Origin: Aureococcus anophagefferens
Lineage: Eukaryota > Sar > Pelagophyceae > Pelagomonadales > Pelagomonadaceae
DNA length: 64,000 nucleotides
Direction of reading: 5' to 3'
Assembly (NCBI RefSeq): GCF_000186865.1
Contig: NW_008705562.1
Span: 2,328,272-2,392,271, forward strand
A model generated the notes under the pieces. That model was given only the letters and a program-made list of their open reading frames with translations. It had not been told where the DNA came from and did not search any database. Every line of letters begins with the position of its first letter. Position 1 is the first letter of the stretch. The translations under genes were made by a program, and so were the position numbers. Positions 18,993 through 32,028 of this stretch are shown one piece after another.

Positions 18993-21900
18993 CTAGGGGC
19001 AGGTGCCGCAGGCGACGGGACAGGCGACTTTGGCCTTGACCTTGTCGACGTCCTTGCGCTTGCAGCGTTTCTCGGCCTTCTCGGCGACCCACTTACAGGT
19101 TTCCTTTGGGTTCGCCTTCTTCTTTTTGGCCCCGCGCCACGTTTTGCTGTCGACGCAGTCCGGCGCGGGGAGCGACGGAAAGGAGTCGGACTCCCCGCAG
19201 GACCCGCACGCGGCGCGGCACGCGACGCTGGCGGGTACCTTGTCGGCGGACTTCTTTGTGCAGCGCGTCGCTGCGTCCGTGCCGATCCACGCGCACGTGC
19301 GGTCCGCCTTGGTTCCTTGGATCCACGACGTCGAGTCCTCGCAGGGCTCGGCCGCGGACGGCGCGGGCGTCACGGGAGCGCTCGTAGGCTTTTCCGTGGG
19401 CTCGGCCGTGGGCTTGGCTGTGGGCTTGGCCGTCTTGGCCATCGTCGGCTTGGTCGTCGGATCGGCCGTCTTGGCTACGGACGGCGCGGGCGTCACGGGA
19501 GCGCTCGTAGGCTTTTCCGTGGGCTCGGCCGTGGGCTTGGTCACGGGAGCACTCGTAGGCTTTTCCGTGGGGCTGGCCGTGGGCTTGGCTGTGGGCTTGG
19601 CCGTCTTCTTGGTTGTGGGAGGCATCGTCGGCTTGGTCGTTGGATCGGCCGTCTTGGCGACGGGAGCCATCGTGGGACCGGCCGTCGGCTCGGACATCTC
19701 GACCATCGTGGGCTCGAGCGTCTTCGCGACCGGCATCATCGTCGGCTCGAACATCTCCTCGCTCATCGTCGGCTCGCGCGTCTTCATGCCCATGGGTGGC
19801 ATAGTCGGCGCGAGCATCGACGGCGTCATCGTCGGATCCTCGGGCGTGGACGTCGGCGCGTACGTCGACCAGCCCTTGGTGATCTGGTTCGAGCTGCAGA
19901 GGTACCGGGTCTGACACACGCAACCCTGGTCGTCAAAGCGAAGGCCAGCCCCCTCGTCGAAGCCGTAGATGTTCAGCCAGCAACGCGCGTGGTAGTTTCC
20001 GTCCGGCTGATTCCATCCGCGCCCGTTGAACACCTGGCGCAGGAACCACTTGCCGTTGCCGGGGAGAATGCTCGTAAATCCGAGATTTCCCGGCGCTTCG
20101 CCTTCGTAGAGGGCCTGGTCGTAGGAGTTCAAGCTGTGGTCGCGGCATCCGCCGCAGCCGTCCTCGTCGCGGTAGATACCCGCGATGCGAGTGTACTGCT
20201 GTCCGAAAGCGTCGTAGACGGCCGCCGCGTGCTCGTAGTCGCGAGGCACCCAGAGGGACATGCCGTCGGGGCAGTCGTCGACGTCGTCGACGCCGCACGT
20301 GCGCTCCCCTTTGTTCACGGGGAACAGGTCGTACAACTTGTCGTTGACGGCCAGGCAGTGGACGGTGCCGTCCGCGTAGTCGAACTCGCCCTCCTCTTCG
20401 CAGACGGGAGCGCGCGACGGCGCGGCGGTCGTCGGTGCAGGCGAGATCGTCGGCGCGACAGACGGCTCCGGCGTCGTCGGCGCGGGCGTCACGGTCGGCG
20501 CGGCCGTGGGCGGGTCGCCTTGAAGATTGCTCGAGCATAAGTAGCTGGCCGAGCAGATGCCGCAGGACTGGTCGTCGATCGAGAAGCCGACGCCGTCCTC
20601 CCAGCCGTCGTGGTAGGCCGCGGTGAGCCAACAATCGGCGTCGTAGTTCCCGTTGGGCTCGTAGTAGGGCGTGCTCCGCAGGAACCAGGGCGCGTCGCCG
20701 CCGGCGACGCTCTTGAAGCCGACGTTCTCGTCGTCGAGGTCCTCCCACTCCTTTTGAGCTTCGGAGTTCATCGCGACGCGAGTGCAGCCGCCGCAGCCGT
20801 CCTCCGGGCGGTAGATGCCAGTGAGCTTTGTCAGCCAGCCGAAGCGCTCGTAGGTGGCCTTCGCGTGGGCGTAGGACCGCGGCACCTACCAAGCACGGTT
20901 TTTTTCATCGTTTCCCAGCCGAAATCTCTCGAAACCGTCACGGCCACAGGACGCTGCGCCGCGCCCAGATGTCCATGCCCAGCGGGCACGAATTCTCGTC
21001 CGTCCGCTTGCAGGTCCAGGCGCCGTTTTTGACGGGCACGATGTCGACGAGCTCGCGCGGGCTCGGCGCCGGCGTCGCTTTGACCGCCGACGCCTCGGCC
21101 GCGCCGCCTTCGGTGGCGGCCTTGAACTTGCCCGTCGCGAGCCAGCAGCTGTGGCGCGCCTGGCCGTTGCCCTTGGCGATCTCGTGGGACGTGTGGACGT
21201 AGCAGCCGCTGTTGCCCTGACCCCAGATGGCCTCGCATCCCGTCGCGCCGGCGTACGCGCCGCAGAGTTCGAGGCACTCGAGGTGCTCCGCGGCCGTCTT
21301 GAAATTCCCGCCGCGGAGCCGGACGACGCCCGAGTTGACGTCCTGGTAATTCTCCTTGACGCAGAAACCGGCCTGCTCGGCGCCGAACATCAAGGCGCCG
21401 GCGTCGTCGTCCTGCTCGTCGCCGCCAATGAAGAAGCAATGGAGCGTGTGCTCCCCGTACTCGAAGACGCCCGCCTCCGGGCACACGCCGTCGAGCGTCG
21501 GGCGCGCCGTCGGAATCGCGGTCGGAATCGGCGACACCGTGGGCTCCGCGCTGGGCTCCGGCGTCGGGGAGGGGCTCGGCTCGGACGTCGTGGGCGCGGC
21601 GCTCGGCACCGGCGAGATCGTCGGTCGCGCGCTCGGTTCGGCCGAAGGGGGGGAAGACGGCTTCGACGTCGTGGGCGCGCGGGACGGCCCGAAGCCGGCG
21701 ACGCGGTTCGTCGAGCAGACGTAATCGACCGAACAGCGGGCGCAGTTGGCGTCGTCGAGCCGGAAGCCCACGCCCTCCTCCCATCCTTCGTCCCAGTGCG
21801 TCGTGAGCCAGCACCCCGCGTCGTAGTTTCCGTTGGGCTCGTTGAACGGCTCGTTGCGCATGAACCACGGCGCACCTTCGCCGGCGACGCTCGTGAAGCC

Positions 21901-24900
21901 GACGTTGTCCGCGTCGAGCGCTTCCCACGCGCGCTGGTCGTGCGAATTCATGGCCACGCGCTGGCAACCTAAAAGCAGGGGATCTGTCCGTGTTTCCAAA
22001 CTCGTCGGACGCTGGCGACGCGCCGCCGCAGCCGTTCTCGGTTCTGTAGACGCCGATGGTCCCCGTCGACTCGTAGCCGAAGCGGTCCAGTCCCAGCTTG
22101 GCGTGCTCGATGTTGCGCGGAACCCACAAGTCGAATCCCGCGGGGCAGCTATTCTCGTCCGTGTGGCGGCACGTCCGCTCGCCGCCCTTGACGGGGAAGA
22201 AGTCGACCAGCTCGCCGTTGAGCTCGATGCAGTGGAGCCGGCCGCCCTTGTACGCGCGGACGCCCGGGATGCCCTCGCAGACGTGCTGCTCCGTGGGCGC
22301 GAAGGTGGCCGTCGGCACGAAGGACGGCGCGTGAGAGACGGTCGGCGCGAGCGTCGGCGCCGGCGTCGGCGCGTGCGAGACGGTCGGTTCGAGCGTCGGC
22401 GCCGGCGTGGGAGACGTCGTGGGCGCGTGAGACACCGTCGGCGCGTGCGACGGCGTCGGCGACGGCGCGGCCGTGGGCCCCACGTGGAAGACGTCGCCGA
22501 TCTCGAGCAGGTCGGGGAAGTTCCCGCGATTCGGGATGACGAAGTCGAGCTCGTCCTCGCGGACGCCCATGAACTGCGCGAGCGGATGCCACATGGACTC
22601 CCAGGGCGTCGACCTACGCATGACGCTGATGATCATTCCCCGCCCCGAAACTCTCAAAAAGTCGTGCCCACAGGACGCTGGCATCGACGGGATGATGCGC
22701 CCGCGGTCCGGCGAGTAGTTGAGGTCGCCGTCCGGCCCGAGCGTCTCCGGGTAGCGGCCGTGGATGGTGGAGTTGTTCAACCCGCCCCCCACGATGAAAT
22801 GGTGCCCGCCCCAGCCGTGGTCCGTGCCCGCGCCGTTCCACGTCAGCGTGCGCCCGAAGTCCGACATGGTCACGATGGCGACGTCCTCGAAGATGCCCTG
22901 GGCCTTCATCTCGTCCGCGAAGGCCGCGACGGCGTCGTCGATCTCCTCGAGGCGCATGGGCAGCGCGTCGAGCGTGCCGTGGTTGTCGAAGCCGCCGATC
23001 TCGACGAAGAAGGCCGCGCGCTCGTGCTCCAACGCGTCGCGCTTTGTGACGATGCGCGCGACGTCCTCGAAGCGGCGGCCGAGGCCCGTGTCGGGGAAGT
23101 CCGTGACCATGCCGTCGTCGCCCTCGAAGATGCCCGAGATCTCCTCCGCGTGGCGGATCGCCGGCCCGAAGAGGCCCGCGAAGGTGTCGGCGAAGACCGA
23201 CGAGCTCTCATTCTGCAGCAACAAGCCGATCTCCTCCTTGAGCTCGTCGTAGTCGATGAGACGCGAGAAGCCGTCGTCGGCGTTGAGGTCGATGACCTCC
23301 GCGTGCCCGGAGCCCTCGAGCGCCTTCTGCAGGCCGTTGAGGCTGTAGCCCACGGCGTTGAGCGGGTCGTCGCGGACCTTCGGGTCCGCGAGGGCGCTGA
23401 GGATGCGGCCGAGCACGCCCTTGGCCGACATGTTGTCGGAGACGACGGTCTGGGCCAAGCGTTGCTGCACGTCGTGCGCGCCGATGGACGGCGGCGTCCG
23501 CTTCGCGCCGGAGCGGTACTCCGCGAGCGTGAGCGGCTCGACCAACGACCCGATGTTCGCGAAGAAGCTCGCGTCGCCGGTCTCGTAGAGGCCGTGGATT
23601 TTATCCAGCGACGGGTGTACGCCAAAGGTGTCGCACGGCTGGTCGGAGCCGGGAGCGATCGAGCGGTACTCGCTCATCTCGAAAGGCATCTCCGCGATGG
23701 CTCCACGGTAGTCGACGTAGTCGCCCGCGACGGCGCAGTCGCCCGTCGGCGCCAGCATCGTGTAGCTGTCCGCGCCACCGTTCAAGAAGAGAAGAACGAC
23801 GGCCTTGTACTTGCGCGTCGGCGGGTCGCTGTAGACCTCGTCGTCGCGCGCGCCGACGGGCTCGTGCGCGTTCGTCGCGTGGAACTCGGGCGCGAGCGTG
23901 AAGAGGCGCTGCGCGAGCTGGAGCCGCGCGTTTGGGCCGCCGAGCATGGGCTTGTCGACGGCGTCGAGGATGACCGCGCGGCTGTGGTCGCTGAGGCGGC
24001 CCTCGGTGAGGAGCACGTCGAGGTCGTCGACGGCGTCGACGAACGACGCGTCGCACCGGGGCACGTCGCAGTAGTCCCACTTCGTCTTCTTCTCGGTCGT
24101 GAAGCACCACGCGCGCGCGCGGTTCTTGCCCGACTTCGGCTGCCGGCAGAAGTTGTGGCCCGCGAGCTCCGGGTGGCCGTCGGGCGTGTGCTTGTGCTGG
24201 TGGGGCTTCTGCGAGTCCCAGCGCTGGCACGCGAGGCCCGAGCGCGTCTTCGCGATCGAGCCCCGGTAGTCGCGCTGGTCCACTTCTCGCGAGCACTCCT
24301 TGGTCCGGTCGGGCACCGGCGGCGCGTACGCGAGGCCGCCGCCCGCCGGCCAGCGGTTGCAATTGCCCGTGCCGCCGCCGAAGCCGCGGTCGCAGCGGCT
24401 CAGGCCGTGGCGAATGAGCGAGTACAACCCGTTCGCGAGGCCGATGAGGCGCGCGCCCTCCATGACCTGCGCCTCGGGCGCGACGAGCCCGCGGCGCGCG
24501 ACCGCGCCTTGGGGCGCGTAGTCGGGCAGATAGTAGGAGAAGACGCTCGGCGCCTCGTGGACCATCTGCCCGATCTTCCGGTCCATGCCCTCGAGCTCGA
24601 CCTCGCGGCCGTCCAGGCTGTCGAGCTCCATCGCGCGCATGAAGTGGAGCACCTTGAGCAGCGGCTCGCGGAGCCGGCCGTGCGTGGGGTCCGCGAGCAG
24701 CGCCGGCGACGTCGCCTCGCGGTCCAACAGGATCGCGGCGAGCGTCGCGGCGAGGTCGCCGTACTGCCCGGTTCCGAAGCCGGCGTAGGATCCCGCGCGG
24801 AACGCGTCGACGACGGCCGCGACGTAGCGCGGCGACGGGTTCGACGTCGAAAAGCGCTGCAGGAGCAGCTTGGCGACGAACGGCGCGACGTTCGGGTGCT

Positions 24901-27900
24901 CGAAGACGCCGTCGATGAACGCCTCGGTCTCGAAGCGCGCGGCTTGCTTCGACGGGCTTCCGGTGAAGGGCACGAAGTGGGGCGCGTTGCGGAACGAGTA
25001 CCCGCCGGCGACCTGGACCGTGGCGACGACGTTTTTGAGGTAGGCCTTGTTGCCCACGGTGTCGTCGAGCACGAAGATCGTGTCGACGTCGACGCCGTCG
25101 CTCCGCGAATAGGCCGCGACGCCGTCGACCTCGCCGTAGAACGCGTAGGCCGCGTGGTCCGCCGGGTTTCCGACGGGCGAGCCGATCTTGAGCTTGTCGA
25201 GCGCGTCCTCGCGCGACGGGATGGCGGCGAAGGCCGCGGACTCGACGGCCGTCGCGGGGCAGAGGCACGTGACACCCTGGCGGAGGCAGTCCGAGCCGCA
25301 GTCGTCCGCGTCCGCCGTCGGGAACGCGCCTTCCTCCCACGGCACGCGGAAGAGGCGGTTCGAGTCGACGTCGAGCCACCAGGCCGTCGGGGTGATTTCG
25401 CACGTCGGAACAGAGCAGAGCTCCCAGCGGGTTTCCGCGCCGTCCGCACTGTAGCACCAGGCGCCGGGTTCGCCGTCCGGGTTGCGGCAGTAGTTGTGGT
25501 CGCCGAGGCCCGCGTCCGGGTAGTTCTCGGGCGTGCGCGAGTGGCCGTTGGGCGTCTGAGAGGTCCACTTCTGGCACGTCTTCCCGAATCTGTTCACGGA
25601 GATTGTGCCGCGGTAGTCGCTCTCGTCGGGCCTGGCGGCGCAGGCCGTCCCGTCGCCGCCGCCGCCGTTGGCGTGGACGACGTTCACCGCGCCGCTGCTC
25701 GCGATCTGCACGCCGAGCGCGCAGGCGCCCTCCCGGGGCAGTGCCGCCGTGCCGTCCCAGAAGGGCGCGCGCGGGTCGGCGCAGAGGCCGTACTGGTCCT
25801 CCCAGATCGCGGCTTCCGGGTTCTCGAACCACGCGAGGTTGACGCACGCGGGCGGCGCGTACTCGTAGACCGCCGTCGCGCCGCGGCGCCGGTCCTCGAC
25901 GACGGCGACGCGCTTCGTCGCGAACGACGTCGCGGGGAGCGACTCCGCGAGCGTCACGGTCCGGGGAAACTTGCACGCGCCGTCCGCGTCCGCCGCGCAG
26001 AGCGCCGCGTGGAGCGGGTTCGCGGCGTCGAGGACTGGAGCGTCATCGACGGACGACCCGACGTAGGTGAAGACGGCGCCGGCGTCCGCATGGGGAATGT
26101 CGACGCAGAGCGGCGCCCCGTCGCCGACGTAGCCGCCCGTGAGATCGGACTTGGGGAACGGGTCGCGACGAGAGGCGACGAGTTCGAGGTCGTCGATGAA
26201 GTTCTCGTTGCGGAAGGCCTCGACGCCGCCGCGGAGCTTGGGGACGTCGAAACCCGTCCACGCGCGCGCGCCCGTGAGGATGTCGTCGCCGTCGTAGGTC
26301 TCGTAGCCGGTGAACGTGCCGTCGTCGTTCATCTCGCGGAGGCCGATGGTGAAGAGCTGGAGAAACTCGCGCGCGAAGTTCTCGTCGGGGAACGCGTCGC
26401 CGCCTTGGTACTGCTCGGACCCCAGGAACGTCAGGTAGACGGCCATCATCGGGCTCGCGGCGATGTCGCGGAGCACGTCGCGCAGGTTGCCGAAGGCGTG
26501 CTCGACGAAGATGTCGTAGTACTTCAGCCAGACCTCGATCTCCTCGTTCGCTTCCCCGACGCCGTCGACGGCGACGACGTAGATGTGCGAGAGCGCCCAG
26601 GCCATGCGCTGGCGGAGCTGGTCCTCGGCGTCTAAGGCGATGTTCGTGAAGACCATGCCCTTGCCGTTGCGGCGGTCGTAGCGGACCTCGACGCCGCTCT
26701 GGCCGTCGAAGTTCCGGTTGTACCACCAGCTGTACTTGGCCCCGAGCGTCTCGTCCGCGCCGGCCTCGCCGGCGTCGCAGGTCTCCGTCATGAGCGGCGT
26801 CGCGCGCTTGCGGAAGTAGTCGCGGTGCAGCGTCGCCGGGAGCGCCATCTGCTCCTCGATCCAGCCGCGCTTGTCGCCGCCGAAGTGGTCGACGAGGTCG
26901 GCGATGGTGTCCGTCGTGGGTCCGAATGTCGCCGCGCCAAGGAAGCGACTCGCGGCCGCGCGCGGCTTCTCCGCGGCGCCGCCCTCGAACCCCACGACCC
27001 AGAGCCCCTCCGGCAGATCCGCGGCGCAGCCTCCCGCGTCGCAGGCGACGGCGAGCGGCGCGGGCATGACGCCCTCCCAGGGGAAGCCGCCGTAGCTGCG
27101 CGCGACGACGACGTTCTCCGTGTCGTTGTGGTACGCGAGGTGGAGCACCTGGTGCGCGCCGGACTCGGGCAGCTTGCGGTAGCCCGCGGCGACGGGCTTC
27201 GGAAAGCCCTCGTAGGTGACCTCGTTCTCGCGGCGGCCCGCGGCGGCGCGGCCCGCGACGTAGCCGGAGACGAGCGCGAAGCCGAGCGTGTTGCCCGGCG
27301 CGGCGTAGGTCTGCCCGAAGGGGCTCGCGGCCGCGTTGCCCGCGGCGTAGATCTTGGACGTGCCGACGACCTTCATGTCCTTGTCGGCCTTGGGGCCCAT
27401 CTTCGTGTCGATGGACCCGAAATTCAGCGGGCGCACGTAGAGCGCGTCGTTCGCGAAGGGCTGCGTGAGCGGATTGCCTCGCACGTCGTCGGGCGGCGAT
27501 GTGCCCAGATATACGAACGCGAACTGCCACCAGGCGATGGACGAGTCGTAGGCCGTCGTCCCCGGCACGCCGCGGCCCATGGGGTCGTCGCCGTCGCCCG
27601 CGGCCGCGGCGTTGAAGTCGTCGAGCGTCGCGCGGAGGTTCGCGCCAAAGTCCGCGTGGAGCGCGTCGTAGGAGAACCAGGACGCGGCCTCGACGTCGGC
27701 CGCCGCGAAGGAGACGTTCGTCGCGACCGTGTCCGGCGAGTCGATGAGGTAGGAATACGTCGCCTTGGCGGCGTCGCCATAGACGAGGAAGAGCTGGGAC
27801 GAGTCGGCCGCGTCCCTCACCGTGCTCTCGCCGTCGTCGTCGACGACGCGGTCGACGTGGAACTCGCCGCGCTGGTTGTAGGAGAGGGCTTCGTTGTAGA

Positions 27901-29300
27901 CGCGACGACCGAGGCGGTCGACGACGAAGAAGTCGCCGCCGGGCTGGCCGTACCAGAGGAACCAGATCGTGTTCGCGCCCGTCGCGTCGACCTCGTACAT
28001 CCAGCTGTTGCCCTTGTTGACGACGGCGACGCCCGGCAGGTCCTCGAGCGCGTCGAGGGCCGCGCCTTTCGAGTCGGGCGACGCGCACGTGCCGACGACT
28101 TCCGCCTCGAGGCCGTGGTTGTTCTTGGCGGCGCCGAGGCCGCGGATCTTGCCGCCCGTCGCGAAGACGACGCCGCGCGCCGCCTCGACGACGACGCCCG
28201 GCCCGCCGCCGAGGGACGACGCGGTGACGACGACGGAGCCGTCGGCGCGCTCCTCGACGCGGTCGGCGACGTAGCCCTCGAGCGTGCGGTCCGCGCCCGC
28301 GGCCACCTGGAGCGCGGGCAGCAGCTCCGCGCCGGCGAGGGCCGCGCCGTCGCGCGACGCGCGCAGCACGCGGCCGCGCGGGAGCCGGTTGCGCGGGTAC
28401 GTGTCGGCGCCGTAGTAGTCCGGGAAGGCTTGTCCCTCCATGTCGTACTGGAGCGTCCAGTTGAAGACGTGCGCGTCCTGGAGGGAGCGCATGGCGTCCG
28501 GCGCGTGGGTCCAGAAGGTCCGGAGGCCCTCCTCGGCCCAGGCCGGCGCGCCGCCGAAGGGGTAGGCGATCTGGGACGCGTGGGCGACGAAGTCGTCCTG
28601 CGGGTCCGCGCCGTCGTCGTTGAGGATGTTGTTCGGAATCCAGAGCCAACCGCCAGAGTAGGCCGTCGTGACGTCCGCGAGGCTCGCGGCGAGGACCGTG
28701 ACCTACCAAGTGCGTCGGTAACGATTTTTTTTCGTTTTCCCGGTCGAAAGCTCTCGAAAATCATCACGGCCGCAGGACGCTGACCGTGACTTGCGCCGCG
28801 GGGTCCTCCTCGCGCGCGGCCCAGGCCGCCGCGGCGCCCGCGAGGCCCGCGCCGACGACGAGCACGTCCGTCTCGTAGACCGCCGCGGCGGGCGACGGCG
28901 CGGCCGTCGCGGGCGTCGGCGCGGCCGAGCCTTCGGCCGTGAGGGTGCAGGGCTCCGCGATGGTCACGGGGCCGTAGCCGCGGGCGAAGCCCGCCTTGAG
29001 CGTGAGCTCGCCGGACGCCGGCGCCGCGAGCGACGCCGCCGTCGCGGCGGAGTGGCGCCGGCCGCCGCAGGAGCCGCCGGCGAAGGCGCCGGGCTGGGAC
29101 GCCTCGAGGAGCCAGAGCGACCCGGCGGGCGCCGCGAGCGTGACGTCGAGCGCCTCGCCGGGCGCGAACGTGCCGCCGCACTGGAGCGGCGAGCCGTCGG
29201 CCCGCGTGATGACGAAGTCGGCGAAGTTGAAGGCCGATTCCGCCTCGGCGGGCAGGCCGGCCATGAGGATGGACCTGTGAGCAGTATGCGTCCGGGGCAT
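18993..29300 (-). CDS. Giant FAD-dehydrogenase / DUF1800 / kringle / DUF1501 / Cys-rich repeat protein
   Basis: Exons 28791-29300, 22689-28702, 22024-22613, 20965-21968 and 18993-20885 join in one frame of 3,336 codons. In order: an unrecognised beta-type N-terminus; a flavoprotein domain (FAD loop VLVVGAGLAGAAAAWAA, then GGWLWIPNN and YAAPGNTLGFALVSGYVAGR); DUF1800 from RFLGAATFGPTTDTIADLVD, with FAREFLQLFTIGLREM and RFETEAFIDGVF, interrupted by one kringle near 25400-25640 and followed by another near 24050-24300 (both with DYRG, WC and paired Cys); DUF1501 (LLFLNGGADSYTMLAPTG, then VTMSDFGRTLTWNGAGTDHG); three modules with WVPR, GCGGC and PNGNYDA; a PAN-like domain; Pro/Thr linkers; two C-terminal ShK-like domains ending CPVACGTCP. 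Probably secreted or cell-surface, but no signal peptide is seen at 29300, so a 5' exon may be missing. In bacteria DUF1800 and DUF1501 are neighbouring genes; here they are fused. Confidence 0.85.
20886..20964 (-). mobile_element. Introner-like intron (family B) with GC donor
   Basis: 79 nt. After a diverged 9-bp flank it begins AGCGTCCTGTGGCCGTGACG and ends CTTGGTAG on the minus strand, matching 28703-28790. Splicing from the GC donor rebuilds DIWVPRSYAH, the same WVPR motif present in the sister modules, which supports the GC donor. Confidence 0.75.
21969..22023 (-). mobile_element. Short diverged intron of the giant gene, GC donor
   Basis: 55 nt. It contains GTCGCCAGCGTCC near its 5' end, while the downstream exon starts GTTGCCAGC, a likely decayed target duplication. 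Only a GC donor four bases upstream of the duplicated GT keeps the frame. The result GCGGCQRVAMNS matches the sister module GCGGCTRVAMNS. Confidence 0.6.
22614..22688 (-). mobile_element. Introner-like intron (family B) in the DUF1501 domain
   Basis: 75 nt, flanked by GTCGATGCC and GTCGACGCC (8 of 9). It begins AGCGTCCTGTGGGCACGACT and ends GCGTAG. The GT of the first repeat is the donor. Its length is a multiple of three without a stop, so reading through it stays open; splicing gives RIIPSTPWESMW. Confidence 0.8.
28703..28790 (-). mobile_element. Introner-like intron (family B) in the FAD domain
   Basis: 88 nt, flanked by a perfect 9-bp repeat GTCACGGTC whose GT is the donor. It begins AGCGTCCTGCGGCCGTGATG and ends CTTGGTAG. 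The unspliced frame hits a stop at once; splicing joins AAQVTV to LAASLADV across the Rossmann fold. Confidence 0.85.
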
Positions 29301-29790
29301 CTTGGATTTGATTAATTTCGTATTCTACACTCTCTAGCCCGTACATCACAATGAAGGCGCGCGGCTCCGATTCGATGGCGGCTCGGGTTCAACGACGTGC
29401 GAACGATCCCCCGCGCGCGCGATTCGATTGAAACTGGACGCCGCTCACTTGCCCGACAGCCAATTCTTGTCCGCATTGGACCTTGGAGGGATGGGCGATA
29501 CCCTTGCCCGCGAGGGCCGCGATCAGAATGCGCTTGACTGTCATCGTTCGTCGAGGGGGCGGCTCGTGGTTCGAGCCGCTTGCTGTTGTGGTCGTGTCGT
29601 GTAGACGCTTTGCTTGGTGCCGGTTATACCAGCGTTGCTGTGTGCCGAATGAACGGCTTGCTGTTGACGCGCGCGGGGCGTCTCCTGTGTCTGGAAGACT
29701 CAACGAGGAAGTTGCCCGGCGCGCGCGAGTTCAGGTTGCGGTGTTGCAGTCCCTTGCGTGCTCAAGGAGCCATGCAGGGTCGGCAATGGG
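29301..29790. other. Upstream region of the giant gene, possible 5' exon
   Basis: 490 bp, clearly less GC-rich than the genes. On the minus strand a short frame starting MTVKRILIAALAGKGIA ends at a good donor (CAA followed by GTGAGC near 29426), and an AG lies directly before the ATG at 29300. So a small signal-bearing first exon is possible but weak. Nothing else is seen. Confidence 0.3.
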
Positions 29791-31889: not shown

Positions 31890-32028
31890 NNNNNNNNNNN
31901 NNNNNNNNNNNNNNNNNNNNNNNNNNNNNNNNNNNNNNNNNNNNNNNNNNNNNNNNNNNNNNNNNNNNNNNNNNNNNNNNNNNNNNNNNNNNNNNNNNNN
32001 NNNNNNNNNNNNNNNNNNNNNNNNNNNN
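31890..32028. other. Assembly gap (139 N)
   Basis: Unresolved bases between the plus-strand partial gene and the end of the minus-strand plastid protein. The gap probably hides the 3' end of the former. Confidence 1.

Follow-up and report, generated by a model that had tools for sequence, protein, structure and literature searches.

Introduction

The DUF1800 and DUF1501 domains, and the bacterial gene pair that encodes them, are already known; according to one published study (PMC5122149), the pair is predicted to form a single operon and is found next to bacterial chitin synthase genes. A published table lists DUF1800 genes in Emiliania huxleyi, and single database entries exist under names such as 'DUF1800-containing protein'. 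No description of a eukaryotic family in which the two domains are fused was found in the open-access literature, with subscription journals mostly outside this coverage. Here, we analyze such a fusion in the alga Aureococcus anophagefferens, encoded on the minus strand of a 64,000-nucleotide stretch (hereafter the window) of NW_008705562.1, a 3.45-Mb contig of a 49-Mb genome; the guanine–cytosine (GC) content of the window is about 65–82% in 2-kb steps. At the level of sequence, the locus is confirmed as one genuine gene, in which a flavin adenine dinucleotide (FAD) domain precedes DUF1800, DUF1501 and two kringles.

Domain content and gene structure

Whole-protein Pfam scores were compiled from three pieces of the protein, judged against curated cut-offs and listed to E ≤ 1. 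The four domains named in an earlier reading of the sequence (the preliminary description) all match above their cut-offs: FAD_binding_2 (PF00890; 68.2 bits, 1e-18, cut-off 20.4, profile positions 1–414 of 414), DUF1800 (PF08811; 187.2 bits, 7.6e-55, cut-off 26.1), Kringle (PF00051; 130.6 bits, 2.7e-38 over two stretches, cut-off 34.3) and DUF1501 (PF07394; 103.2 bits, 2.3e-29, cut-off 27). Each kringle alone exceeds the cut-off (79.3 and 72.7 bits), and their placement was described correctly, one within DUF1800 and one between the DUF1800 body and DUF1501. PT repeats also score above the curated cut-off (2.4e-07). The labels given to the C-terminal part fared less well: PT alone is listed by Pfam in the last exon, and 'ShK-like' for its end modules, like 'lectin-like' for the Cys-rich repeats, is a name given by eye (the Cys-rich part before the last exon was scanned only within a read-through frame ending at 20886). 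The domains are arranged as follows, in window coordinates.

27284..28868, minus strand: FAD_binding_2 (Pfam), interrupted by intron 2
26954..27103, minus strand: short ARSYxGxxWE segment, before DUF1800
24331..26944, minus strand: DUF1800 body, two Pfam stretches flanking a large, partly beta insertion with kringle 1
25400..25621, minus strand: kringle 1, in a loop of the DUF1800 insertion
24053..24274, minus strand: kringle 2, in the linker ahead of the last DUF1800 helical hairpin
about 24031-23850, minus strand: last DUF1800 helical hairpin, after kringle 2
22499..23836, minus strand: DUF1501, containing intron 3, with a predicted alkaline-phosphatase-superfamily fold
19343-18993, minus strand: two short C-terminal Cys modules, in exon 6

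By eye, other algal fusions have ARSYDGxxWE-like stretches too, and the consensus of the nearest relatives, bacterial DUF1800 proteins included, shows a WxxxxRxxGxxW stretch.

The five minus-strand exons proposed previously (29300-28791, 28702-22689, 22613-22024, 21968-20965 and 20885-18993) were rebuilt, and their in-frame joining gives the single protein of 3,336 residues that had been claimed, with no internal stop. The exons were joined correctly, but a first exon had been overlooked. A same-genome paralog (C2) and a Chrysophaeum protein (P0004) extend N-terminally to a CGQxxxVG motif behind a hydrophobic start, and the same motif lies at window positions 29544-29453. This upstream exon joins in the right phase through a 178-nt GC-AG intron, giving a corrected protein of 3,358 residues; its sequence HPSKVQCGQELAVG aligns with P0004 LPDKVQCGQAIEVG and with the paralog FPSRVSCGQRVAVG, and the junction with exon 2 (VGSILMAGLP; VGSVLMAGLP in P0004) reproduces the N terminus of both proteins. 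Under this model, the first 8–9 residues assigned previously (29300-29275) would be intron.

29453..29544, minus strand: exon 1, start codon and putative, weakly hydrophobic signal peptide MTVKRILIAALAGKGIA
29275..29452, minus strand: intron 1, GC-AG, 178 nt
28791..29274, minus strand: exon 2, Cys-containing N-terminal module, Thr/Pro linker and start of the FAD Rossmann fold
28703..28790, minus strand: intron 2, introner-like, with GTCACGGTC at both ends (9/9), motif AGCGTCCTGCGG and a TAG/GT acceptor (by eye)
22689..28702, minus strand: exon 3, 6,014 nt, DUF1800 with both kringles and the greater part of the FAD domain and of DUF1501
22614..22688, minus strand: intron 3, 75 nt, introner-like, with GTCGATGCC / GTCGACGCC (8/9) and AGCGTCCTGTGG
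22024..22613, minus strand: exon 4, end of DUF1501, Pro/Thr linker and start of the first Cys-rich repeat
21969..22023, minus strand: intron 4, GC-AG, introner-like, with GCCAGCG near both ends (by eye)
20965..21968, minus strand: exon 5, Cys-rich modules and Pro/Thr linkers
20886..20964, minus strand: intron 5, GC-AG, introner-like (AGCGTCCTGTGG), with no clear duplication
18993..20885, minus strand: exon 6, more Cys-rich repeats, PT repeats (Pfam PF04886) and the stop codon

For the N-terminal module of exon 2 no Pfam model is listed, and its likeness to Reeler domains is by eye only. A 139-N run at 31890-32028 of the window is an assembly gap or a masked stretch.

A high GC content yields long spurious frames, as illustrated by a 1,602-residue antisense open frame (21827-26635, plus strand) that overlaps the gene and is probably a by-product of about 70% GC, and the locus might on that account be taken for mis-joined neighboring genes or bacterial contamination. 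We consider this extremely improbable. A single uninterrupted exon of 6,014 nt encodes DUF1800 with both kringles, together with the greater part of the FAD domain and almost the whole of DUF1501, and so that part of the fusion is independent of splicing; the same domain order recurs in the strain entries, in Chrysophaeum and, over several frames, in the paralog; and the locus has introner-like introns and sits on a contig of 3.45 Mb. The strain ortholog P0001 is 95% identical across the whole DUF1800–DUF1501 part, so the gene is not a chance frame.

Introners have been documented in Aureococcus (PMC9860276). Inspected by eye, the four internal introns of this gene all end TAG/GT (one of them TTTTAG/GT) and begin inside the apparent left copy of a duplicated target, the duplications being 9/9, 8/9, a shared 7-mer and unclear for introns 2, 3, 4 and 5, respectively; AGCGTCCTG[CT]GG is common to three of the four. 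A target-site duplication that supplies the splice site, together with a shared element, is thus clear for introns 2 and 3 and partial for intron 4; intron 5 has the element only, and no introner motif was seen by eye in intron 1. In a crude script-based scan, the element pattern came up at four places in the window, three of which belong to this gene; the accompanying repeats reached just 5 nt or were missing. The duplicated targets and shared element fit the introners known for Aureococcus, and the four internal introns look like introners; subtracting them would leave a single intron, a structure that a gene acquired from bacteria might have. Intron 3 has no stop in the frame of the exon over its 75 nt, so its retention would stay in frame.

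Distribution of the fusion

Among the 7,988 candidates sharing most words with it, 40 proteins matched the DUF1800–DUF1501 part: 24 carry both DUF Pfam labels, two carry PF00890 (an Aureococcus-like entry and Chrysophaeum) and three carry Kringle. Named carriers of both DUFs are Aureococcus, Chrysophaeum, Noctiluca (a transcriptome-type name), a Bacillariaceae diatom, Asterionellopsis and Durusdinium; Ditylum has a DUF1800-only piece. The idea that the combination was assembled at this locus finds no support, the DUF1800–DUF1501 fusion being widespread in marine algae. On the sequences compared, just two additions are local: a FAD domain gained in pelagophytes and kringles gained in this ortholog. 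The preliminary description had proposed pelagophytes, diatoms and haptophytes as places to look for the architecture. The DUF fusion is present in the first two, and also in Noctiluca; the haptophyte match is a 312-residue Prymnesium piece without a Pfam label, and since this piece is DUF1501-like only, it does not establish a haptophyte fusion. The fused family probably extends to haptophytes. In the databases, P0004 is named 'hypothetical protein' (NCBI) or 'FAD-dependent oxidoreductase' (UniRef). P0010, P0050, P0058, P0061, P0067 and P0167 bear the JGI name 'cullin-associated NEDD8-dissociated protein 1' despite their DUF1501/DUF1800 content, apparently through misannotation.

The window genome holds four DUF1800 loci and three DUF1501 loci, every DUF1501 locus lying at a DUF1800 locus. 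In the window gene and at C39, DUF1501 shares one open frame with at least the end of DUF1800; in the C2 paralog, on the same contig at about 3.348–3.359 Mb and 33–64% identical across the aligned pieces, DUF1800–DUF1501 extends over three frames with introns. The FAD domain is found in the window gene and the C2 paralog; querying with the window protein revealed no FAD part at C39 or C36. At the C36 paralog (L010), DUF1800 is split among several frames and no DUF1501 was detected in the vicinity; this copy is degraded or intron-rich.

Probable bacterial origin of the DUF1800–DUF1501 pair

For comparison, we used the 80 bacterial genome loci nearest to the DUF1800 of the window (the best 80 of at least 594 confirmed). 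A DUF1501 open reading frame lies downstream of DUF1800 on the same strand in 72 of them, and six of the eight loci without one lie no more than 600 nt from the end of their contig; at none of the 80 are the two domains on a single open reading frame. A twin-arginine-type motif is present in 46 of 49 anchorable bacterial DUF1501 frames. Eleven further DUF1800 loci (L097–L107, IMG/VR) lie on 10 viral-called contigs, 10 of the loci having DUF1501 too; L097 groups with Hydrogenophaga, so some of these contigs are probably bacterial.

Alignment profiles were built from database relatives, mostly bacterial, and rows were called eukaryotic by tree place and architecture (one of them, P0019, is an MMETSP transcript). 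The concatenated quick tree comprised 104 of 109 rows, five being left out for too few aligned columns, and carried a composition warning for the window's row. In this tree, the 23 eukaryotic rows form one clade (support 100), grouped with Opitutaceae BACL24, Opitutia and Kiritimatiellaceae MED670 (95); two Pelagicoccus and one more come next out (98). The DUF1800-only tree agrees with this placement (27 rows, 97), and a careful, unrooted DUF1501 tree of 38 rows of our own selection agrees with Verrucomicrobiota, the eukaryotes and six other rows standing on one side of a branch (95/98).

Two observations pull the other way. An unrooted 95-row quick DUF1501-only tree puts the algae beside nine Pseudomonadota (95), their nearest relatives by path being mostly Gammaproteobacteria, and 18 of the 23 eukaryotic rows lack an organism name (the named ones are the window, P0004, P0021, P0022 and P0028). 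Several independent transfers or fusions in different algal groups could accommodate that difference between the DUF1501 and DUF1800 placements, and the adjacency of the bacterial genes would make fusion easy; the eukaryotic rows nevertheless form one clade with a long shared stem in all five trees, and we judge repeated origins very unlikely. One eukaryotic clade beside Verrucomicrobiota is best fitted by a single transfer of the pair with a single fusion, a scenario that we favor with moderate confidence, and its nesting suggests a direction from bacteria to alga. The adjacency in 72 of 80 loci and the trees, one DUF1501 tree dissenting, thus bear out the earlier suggestion that the two domains are fused in bacterial gene order after transfer from bacteria.

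Kringle insertions in DUF1800 loops

Kringles are best known from blood-clotting proteins. Among the relatives, they occur in the window ortholog and in the metagenomic P0272 and P0273, which hold a kringle within the last hairpin, a different loop; none was found by Pfam in P0004. At the two kringle sites, only 30 and 42 nt separate the aligned pieces of the C2 paralog, which has no kringle in its translation or, at that place, in the genome kringle search. Other Cys-containing insertions were seen by eye near the hairpin point in the algal-type P0006, P0018, P0020, P0017, P0024, P0026 and P0014. Kringle 1 is flanked by a direct repeat.

25641..25649, minus strand: 9-nt direct repeat GACGGCCTG, copy 1, at the kringle 1 boundary
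25380..25388, minus strand: 9-nt direct repeat GACGGCCTG, copy 2, on the other side of kringle 1, 261 nt from copy 1

Deleting one copy and the intervening segment gives GGGGDGTAWWL, the reading of P0002 from strain JL721. A shared word of at least 9 appeared between the flanks in 41 of 500 composition shuffles, so the repeat is weak by itself; it is notable because of its exact boundary position and the JL721 protein. The kringle 2 flanks have only a 7-mer in common, out of frame. Kringle 1 is present in P0001 and P0003 and missing from P0002, a gene prediction with other gaps, so the JL721 evidence is that of a predicted protein, and loss from JL721 and insertion are equally likely.

Tentatively, a single capture and fusion of a Verrucomicrobiota gene pair in chlorophyll-c algae may have produced a general cell-surface metallohydrolase scaffold with DUF1800 loops as recurrent landing sites of extracellular modules, kringles having entered at least twice independently (in the window gene and in P0272/P0273) and kringle 1 being a strain presence/absence module, possibly moved by introner transposition chemistry. 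If true, the 9-bp repeat and clean empty site would show the insertion or removal of a domain as it happens, and the kringle insertions a rare close view of an extracellular domain entering a folded protein.

Kringles were also detected elsewhere. At L119 (G000:C3:1711800-1721799), one lies within an open frame reported as 32,784 residues; the 10 kb there has one stop-free frame whose first 900 residues are laminin-G-like repeats with PT linkers, perhaps of a giant adhesin. L114 and L115 (G000 C5 and C2) have partial kringles (profile 41–79 and 42–79) behind a shared Cys-rich DQDGDGCA..WCGLFDDDDF.

Predicted fold and function

The fold predicted for DUF1501 by structure modeling is that of the alkaline phosphatase superfamily and resembles alkaline phosphatases and sulfatases. 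In algae and bacteria alike, D2098, H2100, D2153, H2154 and H1935 are invariant and D1837 is present in 94 of 95 sequences; by their order along the sequence, these residues may occupy the metal-ligand sites of the superfamily. The FAD domain is most like 3-ketosteroid dehydrogenase and fumarate reductase flavoproteins.

Several findings argue against a hydrolase. By order only, the usual superfamily metal ligand His after Asp is Phe in DUF1501; no invariant Ser/Thr was recognized by eye, in the alignment or conserved list, at the place expected for the catalytic Ser/Thr/formylglycine nucleophile; neither DUF1501 nor DUF1800 is known to us to have been assayed as an enzyme; and the predicted DUF1800 model (mcc86b37d855d; predicted local distance difference test score 77.4) matches no PDB entry and no known fold. 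The protein could instead be a structural surface or mucilage component, retaining the DUF1501 fold without catalysis and using its modules for adhesion only. The lack of a clear nucleophile would fit, as would the Cys-rich repeats, Pro/Thr linkers and kringles and the labels found in single relatives (PF07691 in P0021, PF02018 in P0025, PF00020 in P0027 and PF00754 in P0050, presumably PA14, a carbohydrate-binding module, TNFR and F5/8C). Yet a dead enzyme would not usually keep an Asp/His set unchanged in both algae and bacteria, and the FAD domain aligns with its model over the full length; both points make a purely structural role somewhat doubtful.

The FAD domain might alternatively be the main catalyst of an extracellular redox enzyme, a steroid- or quinone-like dehydrogenase for which the DUF pair is a carrier. 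In P0004 it matches PDB 8am3 (3e-19), and 3-ketosteroid dehydrogenase models match; the score is, however, far under the cut-off of the NCBIfam 3-ketosteroid-delta-1-dehydrogenase equivalog (53.6 vs 789 bits, for a query piece without the first part of the FAD domain; at best 66.3 vs 788 bits for the whole domain of P0004), and PF00890 is confined to the Aureococcus-like and Chrysophaeum entries among the 40 relatives. We hold this to be unlikely.

An extracellular location is plausible from the putative signal-peptide exon, kringles and Pro/Thr linkers. Among 11-residue stretches within the first 60 residues, hydrophobicity is highest in the one starting at residue 28, outside the putative signal, which detracts from this assignment; P0004 has a stronger hydrophobic start at the place of the short, weakly hydrophobic segment of the window. 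The 'surface machine' of the preliminary description is best regarded as a hypothesis.

Proposed evolutionary scenario

The explanation that we favor, at about even odds as a whole, is that of a captured bacterial pair turned into a secreted hydrolase scaffold acting on surface polymers. The adjacent DUF1800–DUF1501 pair of a verrucomicrobium-like bacterium would have entered an alga once and been fused, DUF1800 first, into one secreted or membrane-anchored protein now found in ochrophytes, dinoflagellates and probably haptophytes, secretion through a new N terminus replacing the twin-arginine export signal of bacterial DUF1501. In pelagophytes, a flavin dehydrogenase domain would have been added in front, and in the lineage of this gene two kringles would have entered DUF1800 loops. 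DUF1501 may be an extracellular metal-dependent hydrolase of phosphate or sulfate esters of surface polymers, with DUF1800 as its constant partner or scaffold and the kringle, Cys-rich and Pro/Thr parts anchoring or targeting the protein. The analysis establishes the gene structure (from sequence and homology), the domains and their fusion, the side-by-side bacterial genes and the single eukaryotic clade of our trees; we infer the transfer direction, algal export, metal binding, hydrolase activity, substrate and the roles of DUF1800 and the FAD domain.

A bacterial gene pair would thus have become, long ago, a single gene common to major phytoplankton groups. That the two domains are fused in algae points to cooperation between the two bacterial proteins, and the fusion offers both a fold-based hypothesis (an extracellular phosphate/sulfate ester hydrolase) and a test organism.

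Comparison with known systems

The Aureococcus-type entries P0001–P0003 are 90–95% identical over the covered DUF1800–DUF1501 part, with partial gene models (P0003 retains intron 3). Chrysophaeum taylorii P0004 shares the order of N-terminal module, FAD domain, DUF1800, DUF1501 and Cys-rich repeats but, by Pfam, has no kringle. The kringles are clear counterparts of those in animal plasminogen and apolipoprotein(a), the best PDB match being plasminogen (3.6e-82 over five stretches), but here they are single modules in a DUF1800 scaffold, with no protease domain found by Pfam. Nucleotide pyrophosphatases/phosphodiesterases (NPPs) have the motif D-x-x-x-H. Members of the alkaline phosphatase superfamily (NPPs, sulfatases and LtaS) share about 10% identity with DUF1501, which differs in having D-x-H. 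The bacterial pair, nearest in Verrucomicrobiota/Kiritimatiellota, has the same two domains in the same order; in bacteria, however, these are two genes with a Tat-type signal on DUF1501, whereas in the alga they form one polypeptide with extra domains and loop-inserted modules.

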